33,004 nt of DNA, taken from IMG/VR virus record IMGVR_UViG_3300034022_000795, positions 1 to 33,004 of that record; one strand, written 5' to 3'. This document shows positions 20,221 to 30,280 of this stretch, in pieces. This DNA comes from a virus. Position numbers and translations under genes: made by a program. Numbering within the stretch: the stretch's first letter is position 1; each line of letters begins with the position of its first letter. The notes beneath the pieces were generated by a model. The model worked only from the letters and a program-made list of their open reading frames with translations. It did no database searches and was not told where the DNA came from.

Positions 20221-21623
20221 TGGATGCACCCTTTCAGACGTTTGTCTGCAATTGAAGCGTACCGCTCGTTTAATTCAATCCCGATATATTTTCGGCCTAC
20301 TGATAGTGCCGCAACGCCTGTCGTACCAGACCCATTAAACGGGTCGATGATCAGGTCGCCCGGAATACTAGCGCACTCAACAATTGCTGAAACTAAATCA
20401 AGCGGCAGTTGTGTTGGGAACTCTGGAACCCGCTCATTGCATGTTTGAGTTAATCGAGGAATCATCCATACGTCGTCCCAAACCTTCCCTGCTGGATTGG
20501 CACGCTTATCATTATATTTCGTCTGCCTGTCTGATGGTCTGCTAACAGATTTGGCGTTGAATATGAAGTTCTTGGGATCTCGAACGCAATAAAATATGTG
20601 CCTGCTAGTTCGGTTGAATTTTTCGGCACAATTCACGCCAAAGGTTTCGTACCACTTAATCCAGTTGCGGATGGTTAATCCTTTTGATTTCAGCAGTACA
20701 CCATATTCGGCAGCATACTCATCGCCGATCATCACCCACAAGCTGCCATCGTCCGTCAGGCAATTGATTGAACGAGTTATCCAGCCATCTACCCATGCCA
20801 TGTAATCGGTCGGTTTAAGTGAATCGGTTTTTTTTCCGTTACCGTAGTCAATCCCGATATTGTACGGGGGGTCAGCAAATATCAATCTTGATTTGGGCCA
20901 GTCGCTGGCGATTGCGTCTAGCCCTTCGTAAACGTCCACGTTTAACACTGACCATTTGGGTGAATCTTCTTTTATTGCCTCTTCCTCGGATTGCTGGGCT
21001 GCTCGCTCGAGATCTTGCAGTTTCTCCTCACGTTTGACGACCATCTTGGCCTGCGAAATAGTCAGCTTACCCTTTTCAATCTGCTCGATCAGGTCGGTTC
21101 GGCCCGCCTTAACAAGGTCGTCCGCCTGCTTAATGTAGGTTCGGTTCGTTCCCGCCGCTGTCGCCCGGTAGTGGTCGGTTAGAGCTGTAGTGTCTTTAGG
21201 TTTAATCGGTACAATTAATTGTACCGATTTATTTTGCTCCCGGACCTCATTAGTTGGTCTAGCGTTCTCTGGCCGCTCCCGTTTTGCTTCGGCGATAGCA
21301 GTTACCGTGGCGTTGTACTGATCGTCAAGAGTCTTGCGCTTGGCATCTGCAATGGCGGCCTGCGAGCTATTCAAGTGTCGCCTTTGAAAGTTCAGCGACC
21401 ACACCAACGACAGGGCTTCATGCAGTGTCCCGCTGAACGTCTCGAAACGTGGCAAAACGCCAGCCGCCTGACACGCTTGGAAGCGATTGCGACCGTCAAG
21501 AATAGCGCCCTCGTATACCAGTATGGATGATTTTAAGCCGTTAGATTTGATATCACTTGCAAGCGACGACAGGCTATCGCTATCAAGCATCGGAAATATA
21601 TTGGCAATTGAGTGAAATTCCAT
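20217..21623 (-). CDS. ParB-domain / DNA methyltransferase fusion
   Basis: This 468-residue protein has an N-terminal ParB-like domain (SLSSLASDIKSNGLKSSILV, then ILDGRNRFQAC at 41-51), a charged helical linker (about 115-220), and a beta-class amino-methyltransferase: catalytic DPPYNIGIDYGNG at 251, then the AdoMet motif IIDPFNGSGTTGVAA near 425-440 and YIGIELNERY after it. DPPY makes N6-adenine or N4-cytosine methylation likely. The order (catalytic motif first) is the beta class. The gene starts as TAATG after csrA. It would methylate phage DNA, protecting it or marking replicated DNA. The fusion is known in phages. A perfect 26-bp palindrome lies within the linker codons. Confidence 0.87.
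   Translation of the reverse strand: MEFHSIANIFPMLDSDSLSSLASDIKSNGLKSSILVYEGAILDGRNRFQACQAAGVLPRFETFSGTLHEALSLVWSLNFQRRHLNSSQAAIADAKRKTLDDQYNATVTAIAEAKRERPENARPTNEVREQNKSVQLIVPIKPKDTTALTDHYRATAAGTNRTYIKQADDLVKAGRTDLIEQIEKGKLTISQAKMVVKREEKLQDLERAAQQSEEEAIKEDSPKWSVLNVDVYEGLDAIASDWPKSRLIFADPPYNIGIDYGNGKKTDSLKPTDYMAWVDGWITRSINCLTDDGSLWVMIGDEYAAEYGVLLKSKGLTIRNWIKWYETFGVNCAEKFNRTSRHIFYCVRDPKNFIFNAKSVSRPSDRQTKYNDKRANPAGKVWDDVWMIPRLTQTCNERVPEFPTQLPLDLVSAIVECASIPGDLIIDPFNGSGTTGVAALSVGRKYIGIELNERYASIADKRLKGCIQ
21204..21229. repeat. perfect 26-bp palindrome inside the ParB-methyltransferase gene
   Basis: The half-site is AATCGGTACAATT followed by its exact reverse complement, with no spacer. It encodes residues around 131-140 (SVQLIVPI) of the fusion protein, between the two domains. 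Perfect length and an AT centre suggest a DNA-binding site or cruciform rather than a terminator. No other copy was noticed in the window. Confidence 0.6.
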
Positions 21624-21811
21624 TAGCTTTTAACGCTTTCGCTACGTTGCTTCTTTTCCCACACTTCCCGCCGATCGACAATGACCGCCGGTGGAGCCGT
21701 GAAGCCTAACTTGACCGCACCATTCCGAGCCTCAGCCACGATGACCGTGACCGTGTAACCGTTGATTGTGATGATGATCTCTTCGTTGACATTCCGTTTT
21801 AGCACTAGCAT
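21623..21811 (-). CDS. csrA: CsrA-family RNA-binding regulator
   Basis: This 62-residue protein, MLVLKRNVNEEIIITINGYT, aligns with CsrA throughout. Leu4 and Arg6 of the first strand match the RNA-contacting residues, 'VTVIVAEARNGAVKLGFTAP' matches strands 3-4, and 'PAVIVDRREVWEKKQ' matches the VxVHREEIY end (Arg47 equivalent to Arg44). CsrA binds GGA in RNA leaders and usually blocks ribosomes. The ATG at 21,811 has an ideal GGAGG site. It is unusual in a phage, and stands directly before the ParB-methyltransferase gene (TAATG junction). It probably regulates phage or host mRNAs. An ATGGAGG at its own ribosome site suggests self-repression. Confidence 0.88.
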   Translation of the reverse strand: MLVLKRNVNEEIIITINGYTVTVIVAEARNGAVKLGFTAPPAVIVDRREVWEKKQRSESVKS

Positions 21812-21819
21812 CGGTGTAA

Positions 21820-21862
21820 CCTCCATGTTGAGTGAGTGCCGGGGGTGTATGAGGCCCCCGGC
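21820..21862 (-). promoter_or_regulatory. csrA leader: GGA-bearing ribosome site and GC-rich hairpin
   Basis: The minus strand carries a perfect hairpin GCCGGGGG/CCCCCGGC (21,838-21,862, nine-base loop CCTCATACA), followed by ATGGAGG (21,820-21,826). The second element holds both the ribosome site and an A-N-G-G-A motif recognised by CsrA proteins. The hairpin loop contains CCTC, which could pair with GAGG of the ribosome site. Autoregulation is inferred. Confidence 0.5.
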
Positions 21863-21952
21863 GCGAGTGTGATTGGTCAACTCCCCTTTAGCCCAAGTGA
21901 CCTTGCCCGGCTGGTGCCGGATAAACAGGATCGGAATCAACTAATCAGGAGT

Positions 21953-23946: not shown

Positions 23947-24161
23947 TTGGCACCTCCTAGCATGTCTTCTGCGGATTCCACTTCAGATCGCAACACGCCA
24001 ATATCACAGGCAGTCATTGCCTCGCCATCGGCTAGCGAGAGCGGGATGTGTGCCGCCCAAGTCAGCGTGGTGAGCTGGTTCTTCAGGCGGATGATTTCTT
24101 CTGCCTGGCGAATAACTAGACGGTTCGTTCGGTCCACGTCTTGCATGTCAATGGTGTTCAT
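23943..24161 (-). CDS. small helical protein, unknown
   Basis: This 72-residue protein (MNTIDMQDVDRTNRLVIRQA) is mainly a coiled-coil helix (EEIIRLKNQLTTLTWAAHIP) with an acidic end. Both ends form four-base overlaps with neighbours, which supports a real coupled gene. The function is unknown. Confidence 0.5.
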   Translation of the reverse strand: MNTIDMQDVDRTNRLVIRQAEEIIRLKNQLTTLTWAAHIPLSLADGEAMTACDIGVLRSEVESAEDMLGGAK

Positions 24162-24469
24162 CGTGTCACCTCCGTCAACCGACTGCGCAGCCGAGCGATG
24201 GTCACGGCGGCGTGCGACAGATTGGCCGTGTGATCGTCGTCCAATAAGGCCGATTCGATGGTGTTGAGTAACCGTTGTTCGCTCTGGAAAGCGGTGTCCA
24301 GGAGCCGAGCGGTTTGCTCTTCCTCACGCTGCCGGGACGATTCAAAACGTTGTTGCAGTTCGTTGGCCATTCGCTCCCTCTCGATCCATTGGTCATCGTA
24401 ATCACGCAGGCCAGCCGTCAGGCGGGCTTGGTGGTCTGCGGACAAGTCTTGATCTAACGTGGTGTTCAT
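24158..24469 (-). CDS. first gene of the left operon, coiled-coil protein
   Basis: This 103-residue protein (MNTTLDQDLSADHQARLTAG) is almost all predicted coiled coil (RERMANELQQRFESSRQREE). It begins about 80 bases after the promoter at 24,547-24,575. Being promoter-proximal suggests an early regulator or assembly partner, but no motif shows this. Confidence 0.5.
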   Translation of the reverse strand: MNTTLDQDLSADHQARLTAGLRDYDDQWIERERMANELQQRFESSRQREEEQTARLLDTAFQSEQRLLNTIESALLDDDHTANLSHAAVTIARLRSRLTEVTR

Positions 24470-24546
24470 TGTGTGTGCTCCGCGAAGAGTGTTACTTACT
24501 GGGCTGTTTTACTTACTGGCTTCAGGCTTCTTCCCCTGATGTAATC

Positions 24547-24575
24547 AATATATCAATCTATCTATCTATAGTCAA
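24547..24575 (-). promoter_or_regulatory. promoter of the 24-kb left operon
   Basis: On the minus strand TTGACT, exactly 17 bases, then TATATT: a near-consensus sigma-70 promoter. Its spacer is ATAGATAGATAGATTGA, a run of GATA repeats that could be a binding site. It sits between the iteron region and the first gene of the left operon, so replication and transcription may influence each other. Confidence 0.7.
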
Positions 24576-24631: not shown

Positions 24632-24952
24632 AGGTAGGGGTGCAAGGTAGGGGTTCGATCCGTCCGATTATCGTGTAACTTCCTATGTGGTAAAGGAATT
24701 AAAAAACAAGGTAGGGGTAGGTAGGGGTATGGAAAAAGTTCACTCACGGATGTGTGTGCGTGTGTGCGTATGCCTGTGCATGCGCACGTGTAGATGACTA
24801 TACACCCCTACCTTTTTACAATACCCCTAGTAAATAAGTATAAAACCCCTACCTTTACCCCCTACCTACACCCCTACCATGACCCCTACCTGAAGTGTGA
24901 AGTTAACCGCTAACTGTTTTTACAGGTGTCGTATTAATTAATTAATTAACGG
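24632..24952. repeat. iteron-rich candidate replication origin
   Basis: Four copies of AGGTAGGGGT face one way (24,632; 24,645; 24,709; 24,719). The reverse form ACCCCTACCT/A occurs at 24,804, 24,845, 24,870 and 24,882, with a five-C variant at 24,857 and a degenerate copy at 24,823. Copies within arrays are 10-13 bases apart, about one helical turn. Between the arrays is an alternating purine-pyrimidine tract (24,750-24,773 and 24,775-24,792) prone to Z-DNA. An AT-rich TTAATTAATTAATTAAC follows near 24,935-24,950. No gene is present in 24,470-25,021. It lies just beyond the primase-helicase gene, the usual place of a phage origin. Confidence 0.65.
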
Positions 24953-24967
24953 GGCTATTTGTAAACG

Positions 24968-24994
24968 AAAAAACACGGGTTTCACCGTGTTTTG
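24968..24994 (-). terminator. intrinsic terminator of the primase-helicase operon
   Basis: On the minus strand AAACACGG pairs with CCGTGTTT and the stem is followed by a T-run. It stands 28 bases past the primase stop. It separates the replication operon from the iteron region and the left operon. Confidence 0.75.
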
Positions 24995-25021: not shown

Positions 25022-27388
25022 TCAAAAAGGCGACCCGGCAGGGATCACGATCCCATCGGCCTCGTACTGGTGATCAGATTCGTCTTTGATCCGCAGGCCA
25101 ATGTACCAAGTCACGTTCTGAAGCCTTCGTGATGCCGCCTTAAGTTGCTCAACACGCTTTGTGAATAGCGGTATCGCCTTGTTCGACGCCAGCACCACCG
25201 CACCATTCGCCACGGCCCACTTCTTATAAAGCTCATAGACCTGACTGGCTCGGATCCGGTCGGCGTCAGCATAGCCCGGCTTCGGCTGTGTGGTCAGGTT
25301 CTCTGAAAAGAACTCCCCAAGCCAGTCACTCGATTCCTGAACGTCCTTCCCGGCGGCCTTGATCTTATCAGGAATGGCCAGCCCGAGCGATTGGTGCTGC
25401 CTGTAGCCCTCTAGTAACCAGTTCAGGATGCCGCTTGATTCCTCTTGATGCAATACTTTCTCGTACTCAGGCTGTCGTTGCTCCTCTGGAATGGTGACGG
25501 TCCACGGCACAAACGCCAGCCTACGCCAGATGCCTGAATCCTGCCCGACGATTGACGGCATGTGGTTGGCAGCGATCGCGAATTTGTGCGTCGGGTTGAA
25601 CGACCAAAAGTTTTCGTTCATTCGCCGGGCTGTGATGGAACCATCGCCCAGGATCATTTTGATTTTGGATTCGTCCAGGGCGTCAGAAATATCAGTCTCG
25701 GATGCCAGGGCGAAACGGGCACCGTAGAGAGTGACCAGTTCCGCCGGGTGTCTGTCACCTTTGGTTTTGGCGATAAAGCCCCTTGGCATTTTAGCGAAGT
25801 AAGTGCCCATCATCAGGCCAACGGATTCGAGGATGGTCGATTTACCGTTCGCACCGTCACCATAATTGACCACCGATTCGGCCAACGTGCGACCACACAA
25901 AACAGTACCGAGCCAGCGTTGCAAAAATAGCCGAATCTCAGGATCCGGTTGAACCTGTTCCAGTGTCGCGATGAATTTCGGACAGATTGCAGATGGGACG
26001 AATTCCACATCGGCCTGTTTGGTGGACATGAACGCGGGGTCGTGCTCGAGCAGCTGCCCGCCGACGAGGTCCAAAACACCGTTCTTCAGGTTCAGATAAT
26101 CGACCTGGGCGTCAAACTGATCAGGATAAGCCATGACCCGTTTATCGGACATCGCCATAGAAGCGGCTGATTTGATCTTGGCCATCGAGCCAAGATAAGA
26201 GTCATCGCCTGTGGCGAATTCCTTGAACAGTTCATGATGCAGGCATTGGGACTGAACCCACACACCCTTTTCTCCGTCCCACGATGCCCATATTTTCCAT
26301 GATTCGATATAGCGGAATCTTTCGCCAAACGCAGCGATAACCATTTCGGCGAATTTCAAGTCAGTATAGGCTTCCTCTGGTAAAGCTGAATCGGAGAAGG
26401 CGGCAACCACCTTTGTTTTCCCCTTCTTTTTTGTCTTAACCGCAACGGTCTCGGATTCTCTAACTGGCGTTAAGACTGGAGGATTTCTTGGATTCTCTGT
26501 ACCCCACCTCCACCCATTCCTGATCGCTTGCGAATACTCTATCTCACTCAATCCTATCTGCGCCGATACCACACCTAGCATGGCGAGATCCGGGTTTGGA
26601 TCTAGGTTTTGGGATTTCATCAGGCTTGCGATATGCCATGCCGCGTTATACACAGCATCATTCCGCCCGCCTTCCTGTGTTACGCTTACTTCTGAAAGGA
26701 TGCTTTCAACGGCTTTCCGGTTGTATGGGTGATCACCTGTAAAACTGGCTGAAATTATCCGATGGTTTTCGACTGCACTTTCAATGGCATTAAAATTGAC
26801 CTTCCGTTCAAAGTCCCTGACAAGCCGTTCAATGACGCTGTCCGGTGCCTTGGATATCCTGATGTTTCCATCGCCAGGCAGTAACCATGACCTAGACACG
26901 CCTGCGGTTTTATGCCAGGTGGGAGGGATCACGGTTTGAGCTGACTTGCCACAACCAAGACGGATTTCGATTTGTTCAGTCACGCCCTTCCCGATCGGCC
27001 AGTGTTTAACGGCAGCGTCAATCTTCTGGAGTCGATCATCCCATTGGTATAACCAGTGGTTCCCACGGGACGCTCGAAAGCCAAGCGTGTAGTCTGGTGA
27101 TGCCCCAAACAGATCCGCCATTGCGTCAATTGCTTGATCGGAATCAAGGTCGACATCGAAGATTGGATAATCAGGCCCCGGCCCAAGGATTAAACCGATC
27201 CCGTTTGCCACCCTACTCGCAAACGCAGATTTAATCTCGGAGGCGGTCCACTGTCGCTTCCAGTCTTCGCCTAACGGCTTCTTGCCGTCATCGGCCCTGA
27301 TGGGGACTGGCCACATGCCGCAATCAATAGCGGCGAGTGCCGCATCTAACGGTGTTTTAGTGAATACCAGATCTTCCAATTTCGACAT
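25022..27388 (-). CDS. phage primase-helicase (prim-pol + D5/P4-type SF3 helicase)
   Basis: This 788-residue protein has an N-terminal prim-pol domain (GIGLILGPGPDYPIFDVDLD, acidic pair at 78-80; GNHWLYQW near 110) and a middle linker with an RFRYIESWKIWASWDGEKGV block typical of D5_N. The C-terminal superfamily 3 helicase has GDGANGKST at 510-518 (Walker A), 'LVTLYGARFALASETDISDA' (Walker B region), and 'MNENFWSFNPTHKFAIAANH' (motif C with terminal Asn). This is the combination found in P4-type phage and plasmid replication proteins, which prime and unwind DNA at their own origin. The C-terminal part (YELYKKWAVANGAVVLASNK) is a winged-helix-like D5 tail. It is the largest gene here and ends at the terminator beside the iterons. 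Confidence 0.9.
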   Translation of the reverse strand: MSKLEDLVFTKTPLDAALAAIDCGMWPVPIRADDGKKPLGEDWKRQWTASEIKSAFASRVANGIGLILGPGPDYPIFDVDLDSDQAIDAMADLFGASPDYTLGFRASRGNHWLYQWDDRLQKIDAAVKHWPIGKGVTEQIEIRLGCGKSAQTVIPPTWHKTAGVSRSWLLPGDGNIRISKAPDSVIERLVRDFERKVNFNAIESAVENHRIISASFTGDHPYNRKAVESILSEVSVTQEGGRNDAVYNAAWHIASLMKSQNLDPNPDLAMLGVVSAQIGLSEIEYSQAIRNGWRWGTENPRNPPVLTPVRESETVAVKTKKKGKTKVVAAFSDSALPEEAYTDLKFAEMVIAAFGERFRYIESWKIWASWDGEKGVWVQSQCLHHELFKEFATGDDSYLGSMAKIKSAASMAMSDKRVMAYPDQFDAQVDYLNLKNGVLDLVGGQLLEHDPAFMSTKQADVEFVPSAICPKFIATLEQVQPDPEIRLFLQRWLGTVLCGRTLAESVVNYGDGANGKSTILESVGLMMGTYFAKMPRGFIAKTKGDRHPAELVTLYGARFALASETDISDALDESKIKMILGDGSITARRMNENFWSFNPTHKFAIAANHMPSIVGQDSGIWRRLAFVPWTVTIPEEQRQPEYEKVLHQEESSGILNWLLEGYRQHQSLGLAIPDKIKAAGKDVQESSDWLGEFFSENLTTQPKPGYADADRIRASQVYELYKKWAVANGAVVLASNKAIPLFTKRVEQLKAASRRLQNVTWYIGLRIKDESDHQYEADGIVIPAGSPF

Positions 27389-29081: not shown

Positions 29082-29185
29082 TTGCGGTAAGTCTTTAGGA
29101 TTAAGGCTTTTAAGACAAGACGTTAAGTGTTCAACTTATCCGGACTTCTTAGACAACAATGTTGAGTATTTACCACGGCGGCGAC

Positions 29186-30280
29186 ATGGCACGCCCACCT
29201 AACCCTATACCCAAGTACATGTTACATAGTTCGGGACGCGCCCGGATCTATTACAACAGTGTGTATAAGTATCTGCCCGGGCTGTACAATTCGCCCGAAT
29301 CGCGCCAAGCGTTCTACGAATTTTGCGAAATCATCCACGCAACCGGCGATTGGCCTGTTGAGGTCGTGCCCGAAAAGCCACTCACGGTGATGGAATTAGG
29401 CATCAGGTATTTAGCCCATTGCGTCACCTACTACGGCCAGAACAAGAACGGTCGTACCGAGGCGGTGAACCTGCGCTATGCGGTGGATTCGCTCACTGAT
29501 CTGTACGGGAGTCGGCTCGCCAATGAGTTCGGACCACCACAACTAAAGGCTGTCCGGAAGAGCCTGATCAAAAAGGGGCACGTCAGGCGGTCAGTCAACA
29601 AACGAGCCACCCAGATCATCGCTTGCTTTAAGTGGGCGGTTGAAGAAGGTCTGGTTGAACCGGACGTTTGGCAGCGGCTGTCAGCAGTTAAGCCGATTGC
29701 ACCTGGACGTGAAGGCGCCGTGGACAATCCAGCCGTGGAACCGGTGACAAGCTCCCAATACGAACTGGCCCTGCCCTACCTTCCCGCCGGTGTAAAGATT
29801 GCGATTCAGGTCCAGCGACTCACGGGCATGCGGTCCAAGGAACTGCTGTCCATGACTCCGCAGGATTGCGACATGTCCCGCGAGCACTGGATATATCGGC
29901 TCGAAAAGCACAAGACCGAAAAGCACATCGGCGTTGCTTATGTCTTAATCCCGGCACCGGCGGTTGAACTACTTCAGGCGTGCATGCCGAAGACATTTTG
30001 TGACCGATGGTTCCCGTGGAGCGTCGGGCATCAGCAAAAGTCTGTCGCCCGTGCGTGCCTGTCCGCTGGTGTACCACATTGGTACCCACATCAATTACGC
30101 CACAATCTGGCGACTGAGATCAACGAAAAATTAAATATTGAAGCGGCTCAAAAGGTGCTTCGTCACACCGACCCACGCATGACGCGCAGATACTCTAAAG
30201 AGACCGTGGAAGGCTTGTTAAGCGTTGCCGACCAACTCTATCCCGATGTTAATTTAGGGGGGGGGGTAGAGATAAGCTGA
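29186..30280 (+). CDS. tyrosine recombinase (integrase)
   Basis: The protein has 364 residues from the ATG at 29,186 (MARPPNPIPKYMLHSSGRAR). The catalytic set is complete: Arg216 in RLTGMRSKELL, His302 and Arg305 in PHQLRHNLATE, His327 in VLRHTDPRMT, Tyr336 in RRYSKET; a lysine near 243 (HKTEK) is in the right place. The N-terminal half is a SAM-like core-binding domain (LAHCVTYYGQNKNGRTEAVN). It would integrate the phage at the tRNA end. The start is uncertain: 27 bases upstream another ATG is in frame, and neither has a strong ribosome site. A run of ten G's codes for Gly-Gly-Gly near the C-terminus. Confidence 0.92.
   Translation: MARPPNPIPKYMLHSSGRARIYYNSVYKYLPGLYNSPESRQAFYEFCEIIHATGDWPVEVVPEKPLTVMELGIRYLAHCVTYYGQNKNGRTEAVNLRYAVDSLTDLYGSRLANEFGPPQLKAVRKSLIKKGHVRRSVNKRATQIIACFKWAVEEGLVEPDVWQRLSAVKPIAPGREGAVDNPAVEPVTSSQYELALPYLPAGVKIAIQVQRLTGMRSKELLSMTPQDCDMSREHWIYRLEKHKTEKHIGVAYVLIPAPAVELLQACMPKTFCDRWFPWSVGHQQKSVARACLSAGVPHWYPHQLRHNLATEINEKLNIEAAQKVLRHTDPRMTRRYSKETVEGLLSVADQLYPDVNLGGGVEIS

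Follow-up and report, generated by a model that had tools for sequence, protein, structure and literature searches.

Opposed iteron arrays around an alternating purine-pyrimidine tract behind a phage Prim-Pol/D5 primase-helicase gene: a likely replication origin

The described systems closest to the locus reported here are the crr region of phage P4, the origins of SaPI elements, whose centre is AT-rich, and the replication element of pRN1, while the origins of most phages with Prim-Pol/D5 helicases are, to our knowledge, unmapped. In P4, crr lies directly behind the helicase-type gene alpha and its terminator and carries type 1 repeats in both orientations, with tandem copies 9 bp apart; it is through a winged helix that alpha binds these repeats (cited in PMC4234260). 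The SaPI Rep protein is a D5-type helicase that loads itself, and with its C-terminal domain it recognises iterons located immediately 3' of its gene (PMC7581432). In pRN1, ORF904 is a Prim-Pol/SF3/winged-helix protein, and a dyad element behind its gene and terminator is required for replication; the same paper (PMC4234260) presents this element as a stem-loop and not as iterons.

The window, by which we mean the whole stretch of DNA analysed, is a 33,004-base IMG/VR virus sequence (record IMGVR_UViG_3300034022_000795, positions 1 to 33,004). Its genes, as assigned with Pfam and PHROGs, include a tyrosine integrase (29159-30280), an Ant/KilAC-domain protein, a Prim-Pol/D5 primase-helicase, an Enc34-type ssDNA-binding protein, a DNA methyltransferase and a CsrA-like protein, the last lying in the phage operon at 21623-21940 (Pfam CsrA 1e-12) and adjoining the methyltransferase gene. 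As far as these parts tell, the gene content is that of a temperate tailed phage. Genes run leftward throughout from the left end to about 28.5 kb, and a non-coding gap of 552 bases separates the end of the primase-helicase gene (25022) from the start of the next leftward gene (24469), which is the first gene of the leftward operon (24158-24469, minus strand) and has no family match in Pfam or PHROGs. In the order of transcription, this gap holds a terminator, a palindrome, five to six iterons, an alternating tract, four opposed iterons and a promoter. The terminator 3' of the primase-helicase gene (24970-24993, minus strand) is intrinsic and has a stem that is invariant in relatives, the palindrome TTAATTAATTAATTAA occupies 24934-24949 between the terminator and the iterons, and the leftward operon has a sigma-70-like promoter at 24547-24575 on the minus strand (TTGACT-17-TATATT, extended -10, 10/12 match). 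The leader of this operon contains a direct repeat GTGTTACTTACTGG/GTTTTACTTACTGG at 24489-24519, which is kept in relatives. The first-pass annotation had placed the element next to the primase-helicase and the left operon promoter; this was borne out, and the position can now be refined as downstream of the gene, behind its terminator, and upstream of the promoter.

A motif scan for the iteron AGGTAGGGGT with at most one mismatch gave 10 matches in the window, 9 of them within 24632-24891, in comparison to a chance expectation of 0.91 per whole window; none of 100 shuffles reached 10 matches, and the 9 sites of the intergenic region compare with a shuffle mean of 0.10. Exact copies lie on the plus strand at 24632-24641, 24645-24654, 24709-24718 and 24719-24728, and on the minus strand at 24804-24813, 24845-24854 and 24882-24891, together with two minus-strand copies with one mismatch each (24858-24867 and 24870-24879). 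The minus-strand sequence at 24823-24832 is a degenerate copy with three mismatches whose CTAGGGGT core is kept in relatives; with it, the originally reported figure of about ten copies in two orientations is reached (four on the plus strand, five on the minus strand, and the degenerate tenth, which brings the minus strand to six). The two orientations flank the alternating runs, and the sites span 260 bp on both sides of the tract. Start-to-start spacing is 10 to 13 bp inside the clusters, with larger gaps of 64 and 41 bp, so that the description of copies spaced by a helical turn holds only approximately. The arrays have moderate G-quadruplex potential (G4Hunter 1.6-1.8), which is not the highest of the window, and a relative with 69% helicase identity, L131, retains the G-runs while another base changes, so that a G-quadruplex is possible but not needed. 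A scan of viral contigs for GGTAGGGGT pairs returned mostly 6-bp tandem repeats, plus unrelated TGGGTAGGGGTG-like arrays. The latter (L012:2897-3270, L071:2877-3250, and also L035 and L118) lie about 1 kb downstream of a DUF5906-type helicase gene unrelated to that of the window; the TGGGTAGGGGTG core is nearly the same as the window iteron core, a likeness which may be chance convergence since the motif itself was the search target.

Between the opposed arrays stand two alternating purine-pyrimidine runs, one of 24 bp (24750-24773) and one of 18 bp (24775-24792), exactly as long as first reported and separated by one base. No other alternating run of at least 13 bp occurs in the 33 kb, and shuffled windows contain 0.09 runs of at least 18 bp each. 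By a simple dinucleotide score, both runs together form the most Z-prone 42 bp of the window, so that the earlier term Z-DNA-prone is apt as a sequence property, namely a long alternating run with low Z energy. The AT-rich stretch that had been noted beside the tract was located inside the right array at 24814-24844 (77% AT) and is a candidate melting site; the promoter side of the region is 64% AT, and the dyad centre, which is the alternating tract, is 44% AT in the window and GC-rich in compact relatives. When the region was compared with phages by Blastn, all matches were of low complexity and fell on the CA/GT tract.

The proposed initiator is the 788-aa primase-helicase encoded at 25022-27388 on the minus strand, which was characterised by Pfam, PHROGs, an AlphaFold model and a PDB match. 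It consists of a Prim-Pol domain (residues 20-182), a D5_N and DUF5906 SF3-type helicase (347-623; Pfam 8e-16 and 8e-11, respectively) and a predicted C-terminal winged helix (about 711-763), and it matches the PHROGs DNA primase family phrog_1156 at the 1e-101 level. An AlphaFold run with six near-identical sequences reached a pLDDT of only 31, and a deep alignment of 47 sequences was used instead, giving a pLDDT of 85 for residues 332-788. The C-terminus of this model is arranged as strand-helix-helix-strand-strand, a winged helix, whose second helix (about residues 735-748) is the predicted recognition helix. The DNA of this winged-helix region, 25100-25258 on the minus strand, would encode the iteron reader proposed from the AlphaFold model and from the covarying columns described below. 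The closest solved folds include the ASFV primase-helicase, the SaPI5 primase-helicase (7OLA, Z 28.6) and vaccinia D5, and a sequence profile matched 7OLA at E 7e-23 with coverage through to the C-terminus. In a search for the host, no close helicase was found among the genome contigs, and metagenome-assembled genomes gave only relatives of 33-39% identity.

The locus thus has the features of a SaPI/P4-type origin, that is, a D5_N/SF3 helicase with a predicted C-terminal winged helix and iterons directly downstream of its gene, as well as those of the pRN1 type, with Prim-Pol, SF3 and a predicted winged helix in one protein and a dyad element 3' of the gene. The layout had initially been considered unlike well-known origins, which does not stand, as opposed iterons are common to P4 crr, the SaPI origins (PMC7581432) and pRN1; since all three have them 3' of the helicase, the window belongs to a known kind of origin. 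P4 differs in its GGTGAACA-type iterons, in the Toprim primase of alpha and in its need for two sites, crr and ori1, neither of which has an alternating run of 9 bp or more. The SaPI Rep/ori pair (SaPI5, 7OLA) and SCCmec Cch2 share the helicase type and the iteron placement with the window, whereas the SaPI iterons are different and an alternating tract goes unmentioned in the available part of the SaPI description (PMC7581432). The pRN1 element has perfect 21-bp inverted arms, TTATGTCCATAGTGTCCAACT, each made up of two GTCC units 9 bp apart, and unlike the window it has an AT-rich loop with a longest alternating run of 7 bp; its stem (L320:5084-5183) is readable as two tandem GTCC iterons on each side of that loop. 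Because P4 and pRN1 have only these short runs, the alternating tract marks a variant. Acidithiobacillus phage AcaML1 (JX507079) shows the same plan in compact form behind its helicase gene, with CCGTCAGA-type iterons, CGTACACGCGCGCGCGCGTA and opposed iterons, and differs in having two to three iterons per side in about 100 bp, another iteron sequence and a helicase of 33% identity. BPP-1, which the pRN1 paper mentions, carries inverted GGCGTCAGC/GCTGACGCC arms downstream of its primase but no tract.

To see how widespread the plan is, the 700 bp 3' of the helicase stop were collected from about 84 IMG/VR relatives (about 30% identity) and three phages. In many of these relatives, an alternating CG/CA/TA tract begins 32-85 nt beyond the stop and extends for 16-28 bp, with short repeats opposed around it whose sequence varies by lineage; in all relatives the region is directly 3' of the Prim-Pol/D5 helicase. 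When the helicases were clustered at 70% protein identity and the tract was sought up to 250 bp after the stop, an alternating run of at least 16 nt was found in 11 of 25 clusters, in comparison to 1 of 711 control windows of 250 bp from elsewhere in these loci and none of 500 shuffles. As 13 of the 25 clusters have no run of 14 nt or more, the family of helicases in general does not depend on the tract. A second sample, fetched after the prediction with the AcaML1 helicase as query and representing one clade that partly overlaps the first sample, had runs of 18-26 nt in 55 of 58 distinct regions in comparison to 1 of 1807 control windows; in these regions the tract lies between arms that are reverse complements of each other. 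The compact element measures about 96 bp (a two-iteron arm, 18 bp, the tract, 23 bp and the opposed arm), has iterons 9 bp apart within an arm and lies within about 100 bp after the helicase stop. Multi-iteron forms were also observed, with eight exact copies of ATGACCGA and a 26-bp run in L140 and eight copies of CCGTCCCA and an 11-bp run in L134. Opposed iterons without a long tract occur in mycobacteriophage Angelica and in Lacticaseibacillus phage R24.1, which has an AT-rich TATATATA centre; Heather and RcRhea have no obvious element, and the other named phages inspected have no long alternating run. In compact relatives, the AT content is 28% in the tract, 34% in the helicase genes and 51% in the short stretches beside the tract. 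What is new is this GC-rich alternating tract, which occupies the dyad centre in many relatives of the helicase and is thus not peculiar to this phage; origins of this kind otherwise have AT-rich DNA there. A literature search for Z-DNA in connection with phage origins or iterons found no description, a weak negative as subscription papers were outside its coverage.

One alternative for the tract is that it is a block of primase start sites, GTG or CAC, kept for priming and not for the shape of the DNA. The pRN1 primase starts at GTG (PMC4234260), and GTG or CAC is present in 69 of 75 distinct tracts. However, 6 of the 75 have neither, 17 lack GTG and 23 lack CAC, alternating C/G-rich tracts hold these triplets anyway, and primers would not demand 18-36 bp of unbroken alternation, which leaves this explanation unlikely, albeit with some chance of being right.

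Five close IMG/VR contigs all have the same intergenic layout with almost invariant iterons. Three of them (L003-L005) retain the iterons and share 97-98% identity with the window in the helicase half, but their N-terminal primase half is unrelated in sequence; this is a naturally occurring, clean swap of the Prim-Pol half (window 26395-27388), with its boundary at about residue 331. L006 retains all iterons as well, although another sequence has taken the place of its promoter and the DNA flanking it. These module exchanges indicate that the iterons travel with the helicase half and not with the primase or the promoter, which physical linkage alone could also explain, since the helicase half adjoins the iterons. 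L131 has the same plan as the window in flanking DNA unlike that of the window, with a terminator-like stretch, GTTAGGGGT iterons, a 36-bp alternating run CATACGCGCACGCATACGCACGCACACACACACACA and opposed CCCCTAAC copies, amounting to 11 exact 8-mers in total with a tandem period of 12 bp. Nearly every copy in L131 reads AGTTAGGGGT in comparison to AGGTAGGGGT in the window, the third base differing across the whole array, and such a concerted change is expected of sites that one protein reads.

The relationship between iteron type and helicase sequence was further analysed by a covariation test on 102 distinct AcaML1-like helicases, in which the six iteron-core bases served as label and columns were corrected for entropy and chance. 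All 20 of the best iteron-tracking columns fall in the last 110 residues, which hold 80 of the 239 usable columns (p 5e-11), and reducing the set to 23 sequences below 88% identity left the outcome unchanged. Two control labels from this DNA placed only 3 of 20 (tract length) and 1 of 20 (linker triplet) columns there, and this difference from the iteron label argues against mere linkage. Several tracking columns map to the second helix of the predicted winged helix (residues 735-747) and to the wing. The test covers the AcaML1-like clade, with tree structure controlled by redundancy reduction and control labels only; within that scope, the helicase C-terminal domain appears to set iteron specificity, and for the window this would be represented by the single pair with L131.

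A different reading of the arrays is that of an operator, at which a repressor or activator, possibly the helicase regulating itself, controls the leftward operon promoter. In its favour, a good promoter is found at a distance of about 60 bp from the closest iteron, and the L006 promoter is overlapped by an immunity-type palindrome. The palindrome between terminator and iterons differs in its letters in almost every relative (L002-L006) with its symmetry kept, in TTAATTAA-, ACTAATTAGT- and ACCTATAGGT-type variants and in two copies in L003-L006, and it resembles a repressor operator whose specificity shifts. The replaced promoter region beside the conserved iterons of L006 (L006:1770-1845) has GAGAACTC repeats around the -35 box and is probably an exchanged immunity operator. 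Yet L006 kept all iterons through this replacement, the sites cover 260 bp on both sides of the tract, and in compact relatives the element lies at most about 100 bp 3' of the helicase stop and its iteron type tracks the helicase C-terminus, all of which makes an operator reading of the arrays very improbable.

We consider it equally improbable that the opposed arrays work by pairing into a stem-loop or cruciform, a proposal made for pRN1 and phage BIP-1, instead of being bound by protein as duplex iterons. The strand does fold 5.7 s.d. better than shuffles, and the pRN1 stem-loop is required for replication (PMC4234260), but the arms are tandem repeats, 9 bp apart in compact relatives and 12 bp in L131, which change together, and pairing alone would not call for such joint change; the pRN1 arms themselves consist of two GTCC repeats at the same 9-bp distance. 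The pattern of conserved pairing with free arm sequence was not found, the arms being either conserved or changed together copy by copy. Tract self-complementarity was 0.69 in comparison to 0.68 in alternation-preserving shuffles, and tracts no more palindromic than shuffles speak against a hairpin as the common denominator.

The substitutions within the tract were also compared with those around it. Among the close relatives, 15 of 41 gap-free columns of the tract vary, and 14 of the 15 changes are transitions, which keep the alternation; the single transversion, in L003, closes the one-base break and yields a 63-bp unbroken alternating run. The ratio of transitions to transversions in the window clade is 14:1 in the tract in comparison to 35:27 in the rest of the region (p 0.007). 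For pairs picked by helicase-gene similarity and aligned through the region with a free partner, it is 82:13 in comparison to 194:231 in the 30-bp flanks (p 1e-13). A 55:0 count on tracts of the same length was dropped as circular, the tract length having been set by alternation. The excess of transitions alone is not decisive because CpG decay also favours them, and it may partly stem from CpG deamination or, in L003, from a CA microsatellite; the stronger argument for a selected tract is its recurrence at the same site amid unrelated sequence. It is highly unlikely that the tract is a by-product without a role of its own, tolerated between the iterons as a microsatellite or a relic of CpG decay, despite the long CA run of L003 and the alternation-keeping transitions that CpG deamination yields, since tracts recur between opposed iterons in unrelated contexts (the 11 of 25 clusters given above, in comparison to 1 of 711 control windows), stay CpG-rich (442 CG among 800 YR steps) and have less AT (28%) than the helicase genes (34%). 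Within the best explanation, the alternating tract is most likely a selected part of the origin, in which purine-pyrimidine alternation and not the letters would be kept.

As a whole, the region is best explained as the replication origin of the phage, very probably recognised by its own Prim-Pol/D5 primase-helicase. The first-pass annotation had called it a likely origin, and comparative support for this now comes from its position 3' of the helicase, from the concerted change in L131 and from the iteron type tracking the C-terminus. The GC skew, proposed as a check, counts against an origin here, as it turns near 11.6 kb and, at its minimum, near 28.6 kb, half a genome apart, and not at 24.8 kb; third-position skew likewise has no switch at 24.8 kb in the window. 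Gene direction switches only at the 28.6 kb skew point and not at 11.6 kb.

In the mechanism we propose, the C-terminal winged helix of the helicase would bind the iterons in both orientations, and, because the iterons face each other, two helicase assemblies would load from both sides of the central tract, facing each other. Between these assemblies the DNA would open, either at the tract itself or in the AT-rich gaps, and the Prim-Pol joined to the helicase could then prime synthesis both ways. The likeliest role of the tract is structural, either as Z-DNA under negative supercoiling, with melted B-Z junctions by the loading sites, or as a flexible hinge. A more specific proposal, which we put forward tentatively and regard as possible rather than probable, is that in a large group of phages a Z-forming GC-rich tract replaces the AT-rich unwinding element, such that supercoiling drives the flip to Z-DNA and the B-Z junctions give open bases flanked by two self-loading helicase rings.

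With the plan of gene, stop, opposed iterons and alternating tract, such origins can be recognised in sequence data alone, and the survey gives matched helicase/iteron pairs with natural differences. The pRN1 'stem-loop' origin, too, seems open to a reading as opposed iterons. With a Z-prone tract kept by selection at a defined functional site, a role of Z-DNA in bacterial replication would become directly testable.
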